DNA from: Methanosphaera sp. BMS | Lineage (GTDB): Archaea; Methanobacteriota; Methanobacteria; Methanobacteriales; Methanobacteriaceae | Assembly (NCBI RefSeq): GCF_003268005.1 | Contig: NZ_CP014213.1 | Location: 682,001-746,000, forward strand | DNA: 64,000 nt | Direction of reading: 5' to 3' | Shown: in pieces, positions 3,001-50,395 of the stretch | Position numbering within the stretch: the first letter of the stretch is position 1 | How the letters are laid out: each line of letters begins with the position of its first letter | Made by a program: the position numbers and the translations under genes | The notes under the pieces: generated by a model | Told to the model about the DNA's origin: nothing | The model's database searches: none | What the model saw: only the letters and a program-made list of their open reading frames with translations

Positions 3001-3326
3001 TCACTTGTTGCACTGCTAACAGCACTTGCTAGTGTACTCCATGAATTTACTGTTGAATCCTTCTTTATGTTATTCATCATATCCTTTTGTATGGCTTTAT
3101 GTGTATTTACTCCTTGATCCAGAGTCCTATCACTTTCAGATTTTTCAGTTATAATATCTTCAAGGTTATTATTATCTGCCTGTGAAACCTGTACTGTATC
3201 CGTTATGGCAGTTTCTGTTGCATCAGCCGTACATATTGTATCCGTGGACACCTCTTCTGCACTTGATGCTCCTACTAGAAGTAACAGTACTATAGCAAAA
3301 AACAGTACATATTTTAATTTTTTCAT
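1..3326 (-). CDS. Adhesin-like surface protein, 3' end outside window
   Basis: Reading from ATG at 3326 the frame stays open to the window edge (over 1,100 codons), so the C-terminus is missing. Residues 1-24 (MKKLKYVLFFAIVLLLLVGA...) form a signal peptide. Residues about 130-790 hold roughly twenty rungs ending in GGAIY or GGAI with Asn/Thr-rich spacers, the right-handed beta-helix pattern of polymorphic-membrane-protein-like archaeal adhesins. A linker domain (about 790-925) contains the motif N-Y-T-L-S-x-L-x-P-G-x-Y shared with the genes at 4018 and 42121, and an Ig-like module begins near the left edge. GAGGATGA lies upstream of the start as a ribosome binding site. The protein is inferred to be secreted and displayed on the pseudomurein wall; its ligand is unknown. 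The Ig-like part is very similar to a module in the 11951-18931 gene. Confidence 0.88.
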   Translation of the reverse strand, partial: MKKLKYVLFFAIVLLLLVGASSAEEVSTDTICTADATETAITDTVQVSQADNNNLEDIITEKSESDRTLDQGVNTHKAIQKDMMNNIKKDSTVNSWSTLASAVSSATSDTIITLDEGTYTTTSTIPFSKKITVTIDGNGQTIDGNQLQVFSIGSGSSLVLKNITIRNAKSYNGGVIYNNGTLTIFNSTLINNTANSGGAIYNDIKSTSSIYNSTLSNNTVNNDTGEAVFERDSYYWNSPYAINLAGGAIYNNDGTMSIYNSTLSNNTAQVCGGAIYNRNGTMNIYNSTLNNNNATHGGVIFNTMGHNSAESFMGYNSAEDLVSAVLNIYNCSLYDNHATEEGGAISQSMAITNIYNSSLYNNTANNGGATFNNGYFVFFNIYNSSLYDNHATEHGGAIYNYGTAISDYSYQLYNSTLYNNTADNGGAIYNMGSLNISLSSLYDNYANNGGAIYAGGTLNISFSSLYNNHATEYGGAIFANSVLYISFSSLYDNYANNGGAIYNYWSLYLSFSALYNNYANNGGAIYSYGTVDLNYSTLKNNTATSGSGGAIYNGEYYDDELLETLRAYMDIYKSTLNNNNANTSGGAIYHNSGGYLEINCSTINNNTAISESGGAIYYDKLSHLRIKESTINNNKAKQSGGAIYKVGSADIYNSEINNNQANMDGGAIYHIRYYSLSGFNQMLMIDNSTLNNNIADGNGGAIYHYMTPSSYTFYRNLSVYYSTLNNNTAINGNGGAIYVNGSSNIFNSTLNNNTAVNGNGGAIFKNKGIISIDNSTLNNNNAKIGGAITNTEGTCNITGNLFTENTADNGETLYLPGEKTVENNTYNHTDILLKTINLTVKDNQETFRLGEDAVLNFSIELENPDYYDNDILEKIEDITLYINNKINITTKYENYTLSQLNPGKYTTYFTTCNTESNPVTFKVVIGFSEINTDKIIYDYVDGIKETVTLDINDPIGEKGTVTASIKEDDNYNELLTIYNVADGYEFSTESIIQALKNMYSSLDDSYTINLTYTSNNEYIAPSSTEFTLNIIKQRNTTITYDIINNTEGNVQINITVLDKIYNTPIPDATISITGDITKKTTHGIITDDTLTIGEHTINVEYEENEDYN

Positions 3327-4017
3327 TTTAATCATTCATCCTCTGATTTTATAGTCTTTATTAATATATTGAGAGGGGAGGATATTAAATGTTATCATGG
3401 AGTATATCAAAAAAGAAACACAATAGAAGTAATTAAGTAATTAAGGAGGTTTTATTCATGAAAAAGATTAATAATTCACTGGGAAAATTAGAATGATTAA
3501 ATTATAGGGGCTATTATGATAATTAACCAATACTCATGATTAATCATTACAATTAAAAGAACTAAACACACCATTCATAAAAACCCATCAACCGATAAAA
3601 AAAAAGATGAAGATAAAGCCCTCATCAATAATAAAACAACACAACACTAAAAAATAATATATACATATAAAAGAATACTAAAGACTATCTGATACACTAG
3701 ACTAAAGATTAACATAAAGTGGTACAGAGCCACGATTCGTCTTTGAAAGAAAAAATAAATAGTGAATGGTTATCATTATATGAAATCGATTCTTTTTATT
3801 TTCTTTGCAAGCAGGGTATCATTATGGGTTATATGCTCTTGTTTGACCATACAATCCCAAAATAAAGAAAAAAAATCATAACTTTAAAAATAGAAGATAA
3901 AGATGTAAAAGTACAATACTCTCTTATTTTCATGTTAACCTATATCAAAGTCTAAAAAACATATTTCCTGCCGATAACCAATCAATAGAAGAAAAAATTA
4001 AAAAATAGAAAAGGGGT
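3327..4017. other. AT-rich intergenic region between two adhesin genes
   Basis: About 690 bases without a supported gene. It must hold the promoter of the minus-strand adhesin starting at 3326 and the 3' region of the neighbouring gene that ends at 4018. No tRNA-like fold, repeat array or credible small ORF was seen. Confidence 0.5.
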
Positions 4018-19616: not shown

Positions 19617-19657
19617 GTCGGATAAGTTAGAGAGGTTGCTCTCTCTTCCTCTCCTCA

Positions 19658-19691
19658 GAACCGTACGTGTCACTTTCATAACATACGGCTC
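19658..19691 (-). ncRNA. Group II intron 1 domain V
   Basis: A 34-base hairpin, the standard length for domain V, carrying the AGC catalytic triad and a GAAA-type terminal loop. It differs from the domain V of intron 2 at one position in the upper stem region. Confidence 0.88.
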
Positions 19692-19739
19692 AAGCATATT
19701 AGTTATCTGAAGAAACTAAGTCAAATTAAAAAAATTATT

Positions 19740-21284
19740 TTATATTCCATATAAGCATTGGTAATTATTTTTAAATTTAAATCTTTCAAAGTACTCATTG
19801 AATTCACTTTTATACGGGGTTGCTTTATATTTAATGCACCACGCATACTTAATATGAATCCAACTCATACGTTTAAGTTGATTACCTGTTTCAGGATTAG
19901 TAAACAAATACTTATCTTTTATCGTTTTATCCCTACATGGTTTAAAGTGTTTACCTTTAATCCACTTATGAGACTTCTTAGGATATAATCTCTTAAGAAG
20001 ACGAATAATACGATATATAATAAACCAATCCATCTTTTCAAAGGTTCTTTCTGCAGCTGTCATTCTCCAATAATAAGCAGTACCAATTATAAGATTATTT
20101 AAGGAGTCAATAAAACTTTCTATGTCTCCCCCATAAGCTTTTATAAAGATACGCCGTGCTTTATCTTTGAATGAAACAATACTACTCTTTGACGGTTTTG
20201 TAAGAACCACTTTTCTATTTCTACTGAAATATGATTTAATATTGATTCCTAGAAAATCAAAACCATTATCAATATGAGTAATTCTAGTTTTATCCTCAGC
20301 TAAAGTTAAACCCCTCTTTTCCAAGTAAGAATTTAACAGTTTCGGCACTTTACATGCATCCTCTTTTGTTCTACAAAGTATTACAAAATCATCAGCATAA
20401 CGCACCATAACATACTTAGACACATTACTGTAAGTATACGAGCCATCTTTTCTGCGGATACGAGTGTATTTAATATCTAATGCTTCCTCCATTCCATGCA
20501 ATGCAATGTTAGCAAGAAGCGGAGATATAATACCCCCTTGAGGTGTACCACTATCAGACTTATAAAATACATTATCGTCTAAGTATCCTGCTTTTAACCA
20601 GCGACTAATGGTTTTAGAGGCTGGAAAATACCGTACTTGTTCCATGATATAATCATGGTCAAGAGTATCAAAACAAGATTTAAAATCACCTTCAAATATC
20701 CAAGGACGATTAAATCCACGTACATGACTGTGAATCTTTGCTATAGCATCACTAGCACCTCTACAAGGCCTGAAACCATAACTATTGGCTTCAAAATGAT
20801 GCTCCCAAATAGGTTCCAAGGCAATTTTACATACCATTTGGAACACACGATCACGTATGGTTGGAATACCCAAAGGTCTTAATATTCCATTCTTTTTAGG
20901 AATATAAATCCTACGAACAGGCCGAGGCCTATGTAGATTAATTTTACAATCCTTAAGCTGGTAAAATAGTTTCATACGCTCAGCATTTGTCATGACAATT
21001 TCAGAGTCAACTCCTGCCGTACGTTTACCACCATTTATTTGAGTAACTACTCTTATAGCCCACAATAGTGTTCTATTATCATTTAAAAGTAGTCTACAAT
21101 GACTTCGAACTCTTCGATAGTCACCAGATTCTTCAGCACGAATTATCCGCTGTTGTATCTTATATATGCTTCGACTTACATAGTTCCATTTAATATTGGA
21201 CCATTCACTGTCGAGTTTGTCCAATTCCGTGGACTGACACAAATTAATATTTGCACAGTTTTCTTCATCTGAAATTTGACTCAT
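19740..21284 (-). CDS. ltrA: Group II intron reverse transcriptase/maturase
   Basis: A 514-residue intron-encoded protein. The RT domain (about 85-340) contains RPLGIPTIRDRVFQM, NSYGFRPCRGASDA, FKSCFDTLDHD, GTPQGGIISPLLANIALH and the catalytic MVRYADDFVILC near residue 295. The maturase/X domain follows (about 360-480). No HNH endonuclease signature follows the maturase domain, so target cleavage may rely on reverse splicing and another primer source. It normally binds its own intron RNA, helps it fold and splice, and copies it at new sites. It is clearly homologous to, but well diverged from, the protein at 47061-48623, so the two introns are not a recent duplication. Length and motifs suggest it is intact. 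Confidence 0.95.
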   Translation of the reverse strand: MSQISDEENCANINLCQSTELDKLDSEWSNIKWNYVSRSIYKIQQRIIRAEESGDYRRVRSHCRLLLNDNRTLLWAIRVVTQINGGKRTAGVDSEIVMTNAERMKLFYQLKDCKINLHRPRPVRRIYIPKKNGILRPLGIPTIRDRVFQMVCKIALEPIWEHHFEANSYGFRPCRGASDAIAKIHSHVRGFNRPWIFEGDFKSCFDTLDHDYIMEQVRYFPASKTISRWLKAGYLDDNVFYKSDSGTPQGGIISPLLANIALHGMEEALDIKYTRIRRKDGSYTYSNVSKYVMVRYADDFVILCRTKEDACKVPKLLNSYLEKRGLTLAEDKTRITHIDNGFDFLGINIKSYFSRNRKVVLTKPSKSSIVSFKDKARRIFIKAYGGDIESFIDSLNNLIIGTAYYWRMTAAERTFEKMDWFIIYRIIRLLKRLYPKKSHKWIKGKHFKPCRDKTIKDKYLFTNPETGNQLKRMSWIHIKYAWCIKYKATPYKSEFNEYFERFKFKNNYQCLYGI

Positions 21285-21923
21285 AAATTAATCACATCTA
21301 GGATACAAATTCGTTTTAATTCATGTTATACACCTGTTAAAGTCAGCATATCCACAAGAGTTAATTATTTGTTAAATTCCCCTTTATCTTAACGATAATG
21401 TGGCATTAGCTTCCTTAACATCCTTTACCCAATAAGGTCTTAGAATTCCCTCACAGAAACCCCTACCAGTAATGTATTACTGGACTTTACTGGGCTTACC
21501 AAGTTTATCTTTTGTTAGACTACGACACAACTTAAGCCCTCCCACTACACCGACAGACATATGGGTTGTAATCTATAGACGTCCTTTTTCACTTCGTCTG
21601 ACCTGCCTGCAACTACAACACATCCTTTAATCATCCTAACGTGCTGTTTAACTTAACGATGCTTATAAGAGTTCATTTATCATTAGCCAATATTGGTCTT
21701 TCTCTCGCCCTCCACTTCATGGATGCTAGAAGTAAGATTAGGCTTTACCTATCATGCAACCCACCCCACTGTTACCAATGACGCAGTTTCAAGGGAGAAT
21801 AACCCATACAACAGGATTAAAAGTATCCGTTAATAGATACTATACTAACACACACATACAAAACAATGTTTCGAGTGAGAACAAATTAAAGACAATCGCT
21901 TGTCGCACAAAAAATAAGGGAGT

Positions 21924-42120: not shown

Positions 42121-45100
42121 TTAATTTATTACTTTAATAACTTTAGTCGTGTTTCTCTGTGAGTTGTATGCAAGTCTATCCTGTGTAATAACCTCTATAC
42201 TAGTGTAGTTTTTAGATTGAGGTACCGGTATGTTTTTAAGGTCTAAAACTCCATCAGTAGTGTAATAGTACTGTACATTGGTACCGTTTTTAAGTGTTAC
42301 ACAATTTACTTTTATAATACACTTGTTAGGACCGGCCACTACATTGCCGAGATAGTCTTTGATCGTGATTTTCATGGATAATGTGTGTGTCTTGTTGTTT
42401 ATTGTAGCGTTGGCTAGGTTTATTGTTATGTTTGATCTTTCCACCTGGAAGGTTGGTGTTTTTGTCATGATGTTCTGGTAGTTTTTGTTGTAGAGTCCAA
42501 CTTGTATGGTGTGATTTTTTGGTGTTAGTGTCTGCATATCCGTTACGCAGGATATTCCTAGAGGTATGGTGTAGTTTACCGTTGCCGTGCCGTTTACTAT
42601 CTTGACTTTAAGCATTTCCCCATTTGTGTCTTTTAGTGTTATGCCGTTTACTTTGAAGTATACGTATTCGTCCTGGTATTTGGTAATGTTACTTGTTTTT
42701 TTGCCATTGGTGGTGTCATAGATTTTAGCGGTTATCCTGAGTACTTGTCCCTGTTTGATTATCTTCTTGTTTGTAGTTACTTCTATTGTAGCGTTACGTT
42801 TGGATATGTTAATACTTGCCGGGCTACTGGTTGATGCATTGTATATTGTTGTACCCACATAGTATGCAGTTATGTTTTTAGCATTGGTCATATTGATATC
42901 CGGTATGATGGTGGCTGTTGCTACTCCGTTTACTATTTTTATTTTGAGTGGGTTATTTGAACCGGTTAGTTTTCCGTTGTCTTTTATTGTTACTCCGTTT
43001 ACTTTGAATATGAGGTTTCCTTCGTTTACATTACCTCCGTTTGTATCGGTTACTGTTGCTTTGATGGTGAGTTTTTCTCCTATAACACCAGTAGCGGAGT
43101 TAACTGTGGTTTGTGTTTTTATCTTGTTTTTGACTGTTATTTTGATGGTTTTTGTGCTGTTGTTGTATCTGCTGTCTCCTTTATAGGTTGCGGTTATGTT
43201 TTGTGTTTCAACTTTAGTAGGTGTATATGTTTGTGTTACTATTCCATTATTGTTTGTTTTAGCCGTTACTGATTTTCCATTGATGTTAAGTGTTACTTGT
43301 TGATTTGCAAGTTTATTGTTATCTGCATCTGTTAGTGTTACGGTTATGTTGATTGGTGTGTTGTTTACTGGTGTGGTGTTGGATATTTTTAGATCCAGTT
43401 TTGTGTTTATCTTTTTGACTGTGATGTTGGTTGTTGCTGTACTGTTGTTGTATTTGCTGTCTCCTTTATAGGTTGCTGTGATTGTTTGTTTTTCTACTTT
43501 GGTTGGCGTGTATGTTTGGGTTGCTATACCATTGCTATTGGTTATAAGGTTGAATGTTTTACCTGCAACATTTAGTGTAACGTTCTGGTTTGCTAGTTTG
43601 TTATTATCGGCATCTGTGAGTGTTACGGTTATAGTGATTGACGTGCTATTTACTGGTGTAGTGTTGGATACTTTAACAGTCAGTTTAGTGTTAATCTTCT
43701 TAACGGTTATGGTGGTTGTTGCCGTGCTATTTACATATTGGCTGTCACCTTTGTATGTTGTGGTGATTGTTTGTTTTTCTACTTTGGTTGGTGTGTAGGT
43801 TTGGGTTGCTATACCGTTATTGTTAGTTTTAACTGTGAATGTTTTATCACTTACTTTTATTGTAATGTTTTGATTTGCTAGTTTGTTACCAGTGGTATCT
43901 GTTAATGTTGCTGTTATATTAATTTGTGTGTTGTTTACTGGTGTGTCGTTGGATACTGTTAGTGTTAGTTTTGTGTCTGTCTTGGTTGCCGTGACTTTGG
44001 CCGTGTTGTTGGTTGACTGATTGTATACATCAGTTCCAGGATATATTACGGTTATCTGGTATTCTCCCATCTGGTCTAGTGTGAATGTTGTGTTGAATTG
44101 TCCCATTGTGTTTGTGGTGGCTGTTTTTGTTGAACCATTAACGCTTATGTTTACTGTTTCTATCGATAATGGTTGGTTATCTTTGTCGAGTAGTGTTCCG
44201 GTTATTGTAAAGTTTTGTCCTACTTTAGTATCTGCATCATCGACTATGAGTTTTGTTTCTATTTTAGGTGCTGTTACTAGTAGGGTTGTCGTGTTTGTAT
44301 TGTAGTTATTGTTTCCTGGATATGTTGCATTAATTAGTGTTTCATTGCTTTTTATAGTGTGTTCTATACTTGTGGTTCCGGTTATATCTGTTGTCTTGTT
44401 GGTTGTATAATCTTTTATTGTGATAGTAATATTTTCATCAATTATTGGCCTGTCTAACAGATCTTTTAAGGTGAATGTAATGTTTATAACATCATTTATT
44501 TCAGGATTGGTGTTATTTGTAGATATGTTGATTGTTGTATTGAGTTTATCATAGAACTTATTATCTTCTATTGTAACTGTGTAGGTTGAGTTTGTGTATA
44601 TTGTTCCATTGTAAGTGGAAGTTTCAGCACCTTCATTGTTTTCTATTGTTGCTGTTCCATCATTTATTATAGCAGTTTCAGTCATTTGTGAAGGATTAGC
44701 TATGAAGTAATTGGATTCTATAAATGCCTCACCATTATTGTTGTATATTGCTCCTCCCCGTGTTGCGTTGTTGTATTCAAGTATTGAATTGTCAATTTTA
44801 AGAGTACCACTGTTGTATATTGCACCACCCTCCTCTGCTGTGTAGTTTGTTATTGTGAGGTTCGTGAGTGTTAAGTTATGTTCTTGTGCTATTTTGATGA
44901 ATTGGTATGTTTTTTGTCCGTTGAGTGTTTGTCCGTTACCGTTTATGATGATTTTCCGGGTTGCTGAGTTTTCCCAGTTTATGCTTTGTGTTGCATTATA
45001 GTCTCCTGGTTGTAGGTTAATTTTATAACTGGTGTATGGATTATTGGTGGCATTTTCTATTGCTTGTACTAACAGGGTATAATTTGTTACATTACATTCT

Positions 45101-46939
45101 GTATCTGGATAATATACTGTAAATGTTACCTTGTTTGATTGCCTGTTACATGTGGTATAGTATATTTCATATGTTCCTGGTTGTAAATCTGTCAGTGTAG
45201 TGTTTTCATATTTTGTTGTCTTGTTTTTTTCATTGTTGATGTAGAGTGTTATGTCATTGATTCCTGTTTCAAAGTCCCAATAGTTCATAGGAGTTGTTAG
45301 TTGTATACTATAGTTTAGAACTACTTCGTCACCTTGTTGGAATATAGTTTGATCATCTTTGATGTTTAGTTTTATTTCCTTAAGTGCAATATCTGTGGAT
45401 TCATAATTATTGCCTTCATGTATTCCATTCCAATATCCGTTTAAATCTATTGTTTCCTTATTGTTTGTTGCGGTATTTTCTTTAAATGTGTTGCTTGTAA
45501 AACTTACATTTCCATCGGCATATATTGCAGCACCATATGGTGCTGTGTTGTTTATGAAATTAGAAGATGTTATACTAGTTAAAATGCTCCATGATGCATC
45601 ATATATTGCACCTCCACGTCCATCATATGTTTGTCCTGTTGCGGTGTTTTGTGTGAGGTTGGAGTGTGTTATGTTAAGAGTACCACCGTTGTATATTGCA
45701 CCTCCATATCCATCATATGTTTGTCCTGTTGCGGTGTTTTGTGTGAGGTTGGAGTGTGTTATGTTAAGAGTACCATTGTTGTATATTGCACCTCCAATTC
45801 CATATCCATCTTGTCCTTGTCCTGTTGCTGTGTTTTGTGTGAGGTTGGAGTGTGTTATGTTAAGAGTACCATTGTTGTATATTGCACCTCCCCATCCATA
45901 GCCTTGTCCTGTTGCTGTGTTTTGTGTGAGGTTGGATTGTGTTATGGTAAGAGTTCCCACGTAGTTGTATATTGCACCTCCAACTCCATCTTCAGTTTGT
46001 CCTGTTGCGTTGTTTTGTGTGAGGTTGGATTGTGTTATGTTAAGATTACCCCTGTTGTATATTGCACCTCCACGTCCAGTATTTTGTCCTGTTGCTGTGT
46101 TTTGTGTGAGGTTGGTGTTGTTTATGTGAAGAGTACCCTCCCAGTTGTATATTGCACCTCCAACTCCATCTTCAGTTTGTCCTGTTGCTGTGTTTTGTGT
46201 GAGGTTGGATTGTGTTATGTTAAGAGTACCACGATTGTTGTGTATTGCACCTCCATATCCATTTTGTCCTTGTCCTGTTGCGTTGTTTTGTGTGAGGTTG
46301 GATTGTGTTATGTTAAGATTACCAGTGTTGTATATTGCACCTCCAACTCCTTCTATTTGTCCTGTTGCTGTGTTTTGTGTGAGGTTGGATTCGGTTATGG
46401 TAAGATTACCCCCATAGTCGTTGAATATTGCACCTCCAACTCCATATTGTCCTGTTACGTTGTTTTGTGTGAGGTTGGAGTCTGTTATGGTAAGAGTACC
46501 ACCATTGTTGTATATTGCACCTCCATATCCATTGTTTTGTCCTGTTGCTGTGTTTTGTGTGAGGTTGGAGTTGTTTATGGTAAGGTTACCACGTTCGTTG
46601 TATATTGCACCTCCAAGATCTTGTGCATGACAGTTGGTGATTGTGATGTTGTTAATGTTTACCATTTGATTACTTGTTATGTTTAAAAATCGGTATTTGT
46701 TATTTCCGTTTATTGTGTAACTGTTTCCGTTTATTGTAAGAGTCTTTATATTAGTATTTAGTGTTGGACTGGCTGGGAGTGTTATGTTGGAGTTAATGTT
46801 TATAGTTACGTCTTCATCTGTACTATTTAATGCATTTTTTAGTTCAGCGTAATTGCTTACGTCATGGGTTTGGCTTGCGGTTTTTAAGTTTTCTTCTTTT
46901 TTGTTTATTTTCTTTTCATTTATTATATTTTCTTTTATA
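42121..46939 (-). CDS. Adhesin-like surface protein, exon 2 of intron-split gene
   Basis: This is the main part of a gene whose first exon is 49229-49398. Joining position 49229 to 46939 on the minus strand completes an Asn codon (AA plus T) and gives one uninterrupted 1662-residue protein. Exon 2 encodes a linker, a beta-helix block with about 16 GGAIYN rungs and the repeat LNITQSNLTQNTATGQ, a linker domain with TTLTDLQPGTYEIYYTTCNR, a second short beta-helix, and then about eight Ig-like domains of the type NGIATQTYTPTKVEKQTITA. It ends NTTKVIKVIN. No anchor domain is visible. An ATG at 46665 could start a protein without a signal peptide, but the spliced reading is much more convincing. 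Confidence 0.9.
45590..46610 (-). repeat. Tandem beta-helix rung repeats (75-95 bases each)
   Basis: About 11 near-identical units encode GGAIYN plus LNITQSNLTQNTATGQ plus a short variable tip (TEDGVG, NTGRG, GQDGYG and others). The core is highly conserved in DNA while the tips differ, a pattern that favours copy-number change by recombination. The repeat also makes long false ORFs on the other strand. Confidence 0.88.
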
Positions 46940-46980
46940 GTCGGATAAGTCGGAAAGATTACTCTCGCCTTCTCTCCTCA

Positions 46981-47014
46981 GAACCGTACGTGTCACTTTC
47001 ATGACATACGGCTC
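46981..47014 (-). ncRNA. Group II intron 2 domain V
   Basis: A 34-base hairpin with the AGC triad (GAGCCGTATG ... CGTACGGTTC), nearly identical to domain V of intron 1. The following domain VI stem precedes the 3' splice site. Confidence 0.9.
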
Positions 47015-47060
47015 AAGCATATTTTAACCCAAATTGATTATTTTATATCTCCGAGATGGA

Positions 47061-48623
47061 TTAATATTCTCTTTTCTTGTATAGGCATTCAAATGGTGTT
47101 TTCTTGTATGCTTTCTTTATGTATCCTGTATATTCAGGGTCATAAGGGTTGCAGTTATATTTAATTGTTTGTGCATAATGTATGTTGGTCCAACTCATTT
47201 TGACAAGTTGTTCTGATGGTTCTTTGGGGTTAGTAAGTATATAATTATCCTCACTTTTATGAGTATAATCTTCTTTGAAGTACTTATTTCTAATCCAAGT
47301 CCACGACTTATTAGGATGTTGTCTGAGTAGATATCTCCTAGTAAGTGTCCATACATATGCATCAATATCATTGAAAGTTGATTTGGATGCACTTTGTTTC
47401 CAATAGTTGGCAGTGCCTATTATTATGTTGTTGGCATCGTATATTAACTTTCCAATATTGTCACTCCTATATTTTAGGAATGTTGCTTTGAGTTTTGCCT
47501 TGAGCCTTTTAACTCTGTCTTTTGAGGGTCTGGTGATTACTTTAAGTCCTTGGTTTGTCTGATAACTTCTTATATTGAATCCGAGAAAATCGAATCCATT
47601 ATTAAGTGGTGTTATCATTGTTTTATCGGGTGCTAGTGTTAGTCCACGCTCTGATAAGTAAGGTTCTAACAATGGGTAAATATTTTCTGCATCTTCTTTT
47701 GTTTTACAGAGTATTACAAAATCATCTGCATAACGTACCATTGCATATCGAGATAAGTTAACATAATTAGTTGAATACTGATTATGTCGTCTTTTCGTGT
47801 ATTCTATACCGAGTGCTTCATCCAGTCCAGTTAGGGCAACATTAGCCAATATAGGTGAAACTATTCCACCTTGTGGTGTGCCTTCATCAGTTAGATTAAG
47901 CATATTGTTGTATAGATATCCTGCCTTAAGCCACTTTTGTATTAATTTCTTGGCTGGAAAGTTTCCCAGTTGTTTTAATATCCAATCGTGGTTTAATGTA
48001 TCAAAGCATGATTTGAAGTCACCTTCAAATATCCAAGGTCTGTTTCCTCTCCTTGCGTATCTGTGTATCTTTGCTAGTGCATTTCCTGCACTTCGCATTG
48101 GTCTAAAACCATAACTACATGGTTCAAAACCCACTTCTACACGAGGTTCAAGAGCAAGACTAGCAACCATTTGATATACTCGATCAGTAATGGTCGGTAT
48201 ACCAAGTGGTCGCTTTTTACCATTTGTTTTATCAATATAAACCCTACGAACAGGTAGAGGTTCATACTGATTAATGCCATGAGATTTGAGATTATAGAAT
48301 AATGCCATGCGTTCAGGGTGTGATTTAAGAATCATCCCATCAATGCCAGGAGTTTTATAACCCCTGTTTAGCATAGTAACTCTTCTTATACTGTAAAGAA
48401 GTGTAGAATCCTTAGATAATAGGATTCTTTGTAAGTTACGGGCTTTTCTATAGTCTCCGTCAATTTCGGCACGAGCTATATCACATTGTAATTTGTAGAT
48501 GCTCCGTTCAAGTTTTTTCCATGGTATTGAAGTCCATTGGTCAGTGTAAACGGACTTATTGTGCTTAGCATCCTCCAAAATAATTCTATTTTGGCTCTTA
48601 TCTGCATAAACATTCTTCGACAT
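47061..48623 (-). CDS. ltrA: Group II intron reverse transcriptase/maturase
   Basis: A 520-residue intron-encoded protein. RT motifs: RPLGIPTITDRVYQM, CSYGFRPMRSAGNALAKIHR, FKSCFDTLNHDWI, GTPQGGIVSPILANVALTGL and MVRYADDFVILC (about residue 295). The maturase domain (about 365-490) contains DFLGFNIRSYQ and NIIIGTANYWKQSASKSTF. No HNH endonuclease motif follows. It should bind and splice the surrounding intron RNA and thereby enable expression of the interrupted adhesin. It resembles the 19740-21284 protein along its whole length but differs at many positions. The frame is intact. Confidence 0.95.
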   Translation of the reverse strand: MSKNVYADKSQNRIILEDAKHNKSVYTDQWTSIPWKKLERSIYKLQCDIARAEIDGDYRKARNLQRILLSKDSTLLYSIRRVTMLNRGYKTPGIDGMILKSHPERMALFYNLKSHGINQYEPLPVRRVYIDKTNGKKRPLGIPTITDRVYQMVASLALEPRVEVGFEPCSYGFRPMRSAGNALAKIHRYARRGNRPWIFEGDFKSCFDTLNHDWILKQLGNFPAKKLIQKWLKAGYLYNNMLNLTDEGTPQGGIVSPILANVALTGLDEALGIEYTKRRHNQYSTNYVNLSRYAMVRYADDFVILCKTKEDAENIYPLLEPYLSERGLTLAPDKTMITPLNNGFDFLGFNIRSYQTNQGLKVITRPSKDRVKRLKAKLKATFLKYRSDNIGKLIYDANNIIIGTANYWKQSASKSTFNDIDAYVWTLTRRYLLRQHPNKSWTWIRNKYFKEDYTHKSEDNYILTNPKEPSEQLVKMSWTNIHYAQTIKYNCNPYDPEYTGYIKKAYKKTPFECLYKKREY

Positions 48624-49228
48624 TTTAATTACGACACCTCTTAAATTATAATAATGATTATAAGTTCGTGTTATACACCTGTTAAAGTTAGCATATACCT
48701 CATAGTTATATCCTTAATTTCCTATTGTCTTAACGACTTGAGGTCGTTTGCTTTCTTAACATCCTTTACCCTACTAGGTTTAAGAACACCAGTTCACACC
48801 GTAGTCCCCCCACAAGAAATACTTGTAGGTCAAAGTAGGGTTTACCAAGTTTCTCTTCTATCAGATACGACTAACTTAGGCTCTCCCATTACACCGACCA
48901 ACATATGGGTTATGTTCGATACACATAAATAAAGTGTGCATCACCTGTTGGCAACACGACAGGTAATCTAATATCCTTTCCTTATCGCCCAATATAACGA
49001 CGCTTATAAGAGTTCATTTATCATTAGCCAATATTATTAGTCTTTCTCTAGCCCTCATACTCCATGGATATTAGGAATATGATTAGACATTATCCCTCAT
49101 GCAACCCACATCATCCGTTACCAGTTGATGCAGTTTCAGGCGAGAATGACCCACATAACAAGGTCAATAATACAACATTTGTTGTATTATACTGATTTTA
49201 TAAAGGAGAAGAGAATTGCTTGTCGCAC

Positions 49229-49398
49229 TTATCTGTTATTGTGTTGGTATGTTGTACTGTTTCTTTTGTATTTATATCAGTACTTTGTGTTGTGATTGTA
49301 TCACTAGTGGATTCATTTTGTATATCTGCTGCAGTTGCAACTCCCACTAAGAGTACTAATACTATGACAAATAACAGTACTTCTTTAATTTTTTTCAT
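49229..49398 (-). CDS. Adhesin-like surface protein, exon 1 (signal peptide)
   Basis: ATG 49398 is preceded by GGAGGATGG. The 56 complete codons encode a signal peptide (MKKIKEVLLFVIVLVLLVGV then ATA) and a Thr-rich start of the mature protein, ending NTITD plus two bases of an Asn codon. The signal peptide closely resembles those of the adhesin genes at 1-3326 and 4018-7125. Group II intron 2 begins at 49228. The frame resumes at 46939 with NIKENIINEKKINKKEEN and runs into the beta-helix. Confidence 0.9.
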
Positions 49399-50395
49399 AC
49401 TCGACCATCCTCCATTAGTTATAGTTTATTATGATACTCTATATGTGAAGTGGTGGTATTTAATATTTTTTAGAGTTTTTTATAAAAAAAGAAGTTAAAT
49501 TAAATACTAATATACTTATTAAAGAGTATATATTCTGAAATTACTGATTTTTCTTAGGGCTGTTATGATTGTATCCGATGTATCTTTTTTCTATGATTAT
49601 TTAATGGATAGGCATGATTAATCATGATAATTAGGGGGTATATTATCTTTTTTTTATACACTGAGTGATGGCATATAATTTTTTTTGTGTTTTTGTTCAT
49701 TTTGTAGGTCTAATCAGTATATTTTTTATTATTTTTAAATATTGTCAATTTAAGATTTTTACTTATTATTATAGCTTAGTTTACATATTATATTTAATAT
49801 TTACTTTGATTTTAGTTAATTCCTTATTTTATAGTAGTGTTCAGAATCTTACATATATCTTGACAAAATTCCAGTAAGATTTTTAGTTTTCAGATTTTGA
49901 TTTTAATTTTCATCAAAAAAAAAAGTATTGTTATTAGTAGTGAATTATGCATTAAATTAAATTATTTATTAAGTTAGTTTATTATTTTTTAATAGGATGT
50001 TCTGAAGTTTTATTTCTTTTCTGTTAGAAATGGTTGTTATTTCCTTTTTTAGTATGATAGAAGATTATCTACAACAGATATAATCTTAATATAACCTTTC
50101 TTCTTAAAATAAATAACACTTTGAAACATTGATAATAATAGCAATATTATTTAGTACACGAAAACAAAAAACGATGTATTGATTGTTAAAAAAAGTAATG
50201 AAGGTCAATTTCAACTGTAAATAAATCAGTATAGTTATGAATATATAAATAATACAAAATGTATTATTAGTAAGATTCTTAACACGGCCGTTATAATAAT
50301 TTATGAGTATATGGTGAGGATTTGGATTCTCTTAGAAAGATAATTAGCTATGTAAATTAAATTTTTTATAAAAAAAAATATGAATTAAATGACGG
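49399..50395. other. AT-rich intergenic region upstream of split adhesin
   Basis: About 1 kb without a convincing gene. It must hold the promoter of the adhesin starting at 49398 and the 3' end of the channel gene. A 70-codon plus-strand ORF at 49665-49877 is Phe/Ile/Tyr-rich, lacks a good ribosome binding site and is treated as chance. No RNA gene or repeat was recognised. Confidence 0.5.

Follow-up and report, generated by a model that had tools for sequence, protein, structure and literature searches.

The 64,000-nt stretch of the Methanosphaera sp. BMS genome analysed here (the window, whose coordinates are used throughout unless stated otherwise) carries on its minus strand an adhesin-like protein (ALP) gene whose coding sequence is split by a group II intron. 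The observation itself is confirmed and well supported. Our results very probably reflect an intact, probably mobile group II intron that retrohomed into the ALP coding sequence and is expected to be spliced out, restoring the secreted adhesin. The original prediction, made on this locus from the sequence alone, had already described an archaeal surface-protein gene interrupted in this way; the host is indeed an archaeon, Methanosphaera. What it missed is the wider pattern: the window intron is one of a clade that has repeatedly entered coding sequences.

Exon 1 (49229..49398, - strand) contains the start codon and the signal peptide, and ends in NTITD plus the two bases AA. Exon 2 (42121..46939, - strand) encodes the remainder of the adhesin in 1,605 codons plus the split codon, and a domain search identified beta-helix repeats, Pectate_lyase_5 and the immunoglobulin (Ig)-like domains Big_1 and Big_3_5 within it. 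When 49398..49229 is joined to 46939..42121, translation gives an open frame of 1,662 amino acids (aa) with a single terminal stop, just as had been predicted. The joined protein has all the features of ALPs of gut Methanobacteriales, namely a signal peptide (here a hydrophobic N-terminus, judged from the sequence), right-handed beta-helix repeats and Ig-like domains. Without splicing, the frame stops 10 codons inside the intron and encodes 66 aa in total. Because exon 1 supplies the start codon and signal peptide, and the unspliced frame ends so early, a secreted full-length adhesin requires splicing, which upholds another of the earlier claims. Any precise insertion yields a restored frame, however, and the in-frame join was therefore rejected as evidence of function.

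The intron (46940..49228, - strand) is 2,289 nt long and runs from GTGCGAC to CCGAC. These boundaries fit the GUGYG 5′ / AY 3′ rule and are identical in 13 compared introns. An Rfam RF00029 match of 64.2 bits covers domains V and VI (D5/D6) and terminates exactly at 46940. Together with folding, it delimits a 34-nt D5 with a GAAA loop (46981..47014, - strand) and a D6 with the usual bulge, which includes the intron 3′ end (..UUAUCCGAC; 46940..46980, - strand). The intron-encoded protein of 520 aa (47061..48623, - strand) contains RVT_N, RVT_1 with the YADD motif, and maturase domain X (GIIM); its TIGR04416 match exceeds the cut-off, and a domain search of the 520 aa gave no match to an HNH endonuclease domain. 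Boundaries, D5/D6, the pairings with the exon described below and a reverse transcriptase/maturase are thus all present, and the assignment to group II introns stands.

Among solved structures, the maturase matches TeI4h best (6me0, 298 bits), whereas LtrA reaches 147 bits and IIC-type enzymes about 114-121. We take the TeI4h structure to be that of a CL/IIB maturase. Judged from solved-structure similarity only, the intron is most likely IIB-like, with a maturase nearest the chloroplast-like (CL) type, for which the introns compared are cyanobacterial TeI4h and archaeal CL1. Its insertion site does not fit bacterial class C (IIC), whose members insert behind terminators or T-runs, as the window intron lies inside coding sequence. 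CL1-type introns have been reported from archaea in a complete-genome survey, which found archaeal group II introns mainly in Methanomicrobia and none in most other archaeal phyla (PMC8919778); neither Methanobacteriota nor Methanosphaera is named in its main text.

Target recognition can be read from the exon-binding (EBS) and intron-binding (IBS) sequences, all on the minus strand. EBS1 (TTATTT, in a hairpin loop, 48927..48932) pairs with IBS1 (AGATAA, 49229..49234) at the end of exon 1 with one G-U, and EBS2 (TATTG, 48990..48994) pairs with IBS2 (CAATA, 49237..49241) in exon 1. All 11 positions are paired in a register common to the related introns, and an equally good EBS match occurs at only 37 of ~128,000 window positions. 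The register sets two variable domain I segments of the aligned introns against exon positions -13 to -9 (IBS2) and -6 to -1 (IBS1). Related introns with different targets (at loci given as L numbers) show corresponding changes on both sides; for example, EBS2/IBS2 and EBS1/IBS1 read CCAAT/ATTGG and TTGCTC/GAGCAA (L107), CCATT/AATGG and TAGCTC/GGGCTA (L118), AATAG/CTATT and CTATTT/AGATAG (L177), and GGAGT/ACTTC and TTGTTT/AAACAA (L116). Over 11 introns, a set that includes near-copies and hence not 11 fully independent cases, the covariation score is 112 against a permuted mean of 61 (standard deviation 8), and 0 of 100,000 permutations scored as high. The register was picked by eye on the same data as scored, but every permutation retains it, so the contrast between observed and permuted scores stands.

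The same genome also encodes an intron-free paralogue of 1,841 aa (G000:C1:2362499-2368024; G000 is the window's own genome, and other G numbers denote compared genomes). Its alignment to the joined exons spans the join with ~97% nucleotide identity over 279 nt. The comparison of homologues at the join, which the original prediction had proposed as a check, thus returned an in-frame match, although one codon differs. Frame continuity would arise by chance alone about once in three cases, yet a chance match or an assembly artefact is hardly credible here: the window belongs to a single-contig genome of 2.87 Mb that is 99.96% complete, and the paralogue, the EBS/IBS pairing and the recurrence of this arrangement in further Methanosphaera genomes all argue against it.

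The two paralogues are near-identical from ~330 nt upstream to codon 155 (window 49229-49730 plus the start of exon 2) and far more diverged beyond. Their dS is 0.066 in the N-terminal part and 0.49 in the C-terminal part, where dN/dS is 0.18. An N-terminus so much closer than the C-terminus suggests recent gene conversion, or a recent exchange of the promoter and N-terminal part, between the paralogues. We did not accept the C-terminal dN/dS as proving that splicing has been maintained, since most of the underlying divergence may be older than the insertion.

Several points weigh against our interpretation. Given the contrast between the N-terminal and C-terminal dS, the insertion may be recent, in which case an intact exon 2 is no proof that selection has maintained splicing. 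At the join the paralogue is 3 nt shorter (AACAG, a 3-nt gap, then ATATAGAAG versus AACAGATAATATAAAAG; ITD-IEEN versus ITDNIKEN); the frame is unaffected and the difference is probably an ordinary codon indel, but the paralogue may not show the exact pre-insertion sequence. No EBS3-IBS3 contact with the 3′ exon was identified, as no single covarying column was found among the aligned introns. Finally, 24 genome sites match CAATANNAGATAA exactly and only the window site carries an intron; the intron may thus be poorly mobile, or may require additional contacts with its target.

These considerations bear on an alternative that we regard as unlikely, in which a recent insertion is spliced poorly or not at all, and the adhesin is in effect off and tolerated given the many other adhesins. 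The family is large, with 158 matching stretches in the window's genome, and the low N-terminal dS is compatible with a recent event. Furthermore, spliced group II introns in bacteria tend to reduce host mRNA by reopening ligated exons, as shown for Ll.LtrB (PMC6003770). On the other hand, no damage is seen in the ribozyme parts examined, in the YADD motif or in either exon-binding pairing, and sister introns lie in a symporter gene and in a CobN-like gene that is near-universal among the sampled Methanosphaera genomes, the loss of which would be less readily tolerated. We therefore favour an insertion that is spliced.

Among 139 Methanobacteriaceae genomes, those with an intron 5′-end pattern comprise 7 of 20 from Methanosphaera and 4 from a single further genus. 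In Methanosphaera, at least 12 insertions lie inside open frames, all in the sense orientation. Nine are in ALPs (the window gene; L106, L107, L108, L109 and L110 in G010; L115 and L116 in G009; L118 in G018), and the others interrupt a glutamate/dicarboxylate symporter (L170 and L117, G017), a CobN-like gene (L177, G018) and an IS66-like transposase remnant (L111). The join is in frame in 10 of the 10 insertions with both ends known. Across the junction, the joined symporter and CobN-like proteins show no gap when aligned to uninterrupted homologues from other Methanosphaera genomes. The GTGCG / GAC boundaries of this intron type thereby gain support that does not depend on the window locus. 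The intron-encoded proteins, including that of the window, form one clade (100/98 support), of which 9 of 12 rows are within open reading frames (ORFs) as labelled in the tree and 10 of 12 after re-scoring of L111. The L177 intron (G018:C26, oriented 3002-3819) measures 818 nt and no longer has most of its protein gene; a maturase or host factor would have to be supplied in trans. The CobN-like gene that it interrupts is present in almost every genome of the genus that was sampled.

The adhesin insertions in G010 and G018 are mostly located between GG(A/T)GGAGCAA and T, or in close variants of this site, which corresponds to GGA(I) codons of the beta-helix repeats. The motif GGWGGWGCWAT occurs 465, 180 and 102 times in three genomes, compared with 8, 3 and 3 for the reversed control. 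Apparently, the EBS sequences of this intron lineage are tuned to a codon motif of which the ALP family contains hundreds of copies. The target of the window intron, ACAATAACAGATAA, lies in the N-terminal spacer and differs from these GGA(I)-motif sites. It is near-identical to the target of the symporter intron in G017 (ACATTAACAGATAA, L170 5′ flank), in an unrelated gene. Almost the same 14-mer (ACAWTAACAGATAA) is found in the L170 5′ flank and at window 49229, and the two maturases belong to different subclades.

We infer the following course of events. The intron RNA, together with its maturase, would recognise the DNA target via EBS1/EBS2-IBS pairing, reverse-splice into it and then be copied in by retrohoming. 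From the host transcript, the ribozyme would be spliced out with the help of the maturase, giving the full-length secreted adhesin. Given the effect of spliced introns on host genes seen with Ll.LtrB (PMC6003770), expression of the window adhesin may be reduced rather than switched. The redundant genes of the ALP family would present hundreds of nearly identical targets and could thus serve as a niche for the intron lineage. With so many equivalent targets in redundant genes, an insertion would be cheap for the host, which would explain the persistence of in-gene insertions.

One further possibility is that splicing acts as a regulated on/off switch or as bet-hedging, with unspliced RNA encoding the 66-residue stub, and the original prediction had suggested that the adhesin could be off in this way. 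The gene anatomy would permit it, with start codon and signal peptide both confined to exon 1 and an early stop in the unspliced frame, and a Clostridium tetani group II intron, C.te.I1, yields alternative surface-layer protein forms, although its authors saw no large splicing change between growth conditions (PMC3919590). We consider such a switch very improbable at the window locus, where nothing points to regulation. We looked there for a second D5/D6 or an alternative splice site and found none; with a single D5/D6 and no second 3′ splice site, alternative splicing through extra D5/D6 copies of the C.te.I1 kind was rejected. Frame restoration is automatic and no strain difference was found; this part of the earlier reading gained no support. 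C.te.I1 fuses surface-protein reading frames by splicing, as the window intron would. C.te.I1, however, belongs to class B, has neither an intron-encoded protein nor EBS2, splices at a 5′ site displaced by 8 nt and is accompanied by four D5/D6 motifs (PMC3919590), whereas the window intron has its own maturase, both EBS1 and EBS2, a canonical boundary and one D5/D6.

In G010, four introns that are 97.6-98.3% identical interrupt four different adhesins and share both motif and codon phase of insertion (GGA, then A before the intron and TN after it), and 12 of 12 in-silico chimeras of these adhesins open in frame. It is tempting to speculate that the intron clade forms a shuffling joint of the surface-protein family, where exchange would join N- and C-terminal adhesin parts in frame, but we hold this to be decidedly doubtful. 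The route would be recombination between introns or RNA trans-splicing, the latter having been reported for Ll.LtrB (PMC6248898), and the EBS sequences of the introns could act on the many adhesin mRNAs that share the motif. If so, the N-terminal part of one adhesin would be fused to the C-terminal part of another. As the window's genome has only one intron of this lineage, such shuffling would apply to the relatives and not to the window locus.

Many related introns lie between genes, frequently just downstream of T-runs. The window has one more complete group II intron (19617-21908, - strand), of a different lineage, which follows the stop codon of another adhesin-like gene at a distance of 15 nt and is immediately preceded by TTATTTTTT; the same genome contains two nearly identical copies, likewise behind T-runs. 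In the intergenic L114, L044, L166, L167, L172 and L174, a CTTCGTTATAT-like motif, perhaps a common intergenic element of the genus, precedes the insertion by ~10-20 nt. An isolated D5/D6 remnant (L009 7001-7070, G000:C1:409570) is present downstream of a further adhesin gene, which is similar to the window gene at its C-terminus. In addition, several introns contain another intron (GTGCGACAAGATAGG...) at one spot between D5 and D6, where GGAGAGA meets GTGCG. Such nested introns are located in L113 (4271), L114 (6667 and ~8945, oriented), L115, L116, L044, L119 and L084 (723), and the nesting in L114 is apparently three deep.

Nesting is thus shared with Methanosarcina, in which archaeal group II introns home to defined sequences, other introns among them (Dai and Zimmerly 2003, as cited in PMC4424553). 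The Methanosarcina twintrons are flanked by exons without coding ORFs, whereas the Methanosphaera introns interrupt intact-looking genes. A parallel in bacteria is Ll.LtrB of Lactococcus lactis, which is mobile, encodes its own maturase, inserts into coding sequence guided by EBS/IBS pairing and restores the host protein upon splicing (PMC6003770). Its host gene is a relaxase on a conjugative plasmid, while the host of the window intron is a chromosomal archaeal adhesin multigene family; moreover, unlike Ll.LtrB, the window intron has several sister introns at one repeat motif. Reviews place prokaryotic group II introns mostly outside housekeeping genes, where splicing hardly matters to the host, and cases in protein genes are known but unusual (PMC4424553). 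Searches of the openly licensed literature, where absence is not proof, brought up no description of group II introns in adhesin-like genes of Methanosphaera or Methanobrevibacter, and introns go unmentioned in papers on these adhesins and on the phylum.

More than the single locus, which is moderately curious, it is the repeated invasion of coding sequences in an archaeal surface-protein family by one intron lineage that deserves attention. Should splicing be confirmed, these archaea would have protein genes that depend on self-splicing introns, and would offer a direct model for the proposed group II invasion of archaeal genes before the origin of nuclear introns. Adhesin genes of gut methanogens that are annotated as broken may then be intact after splicing.

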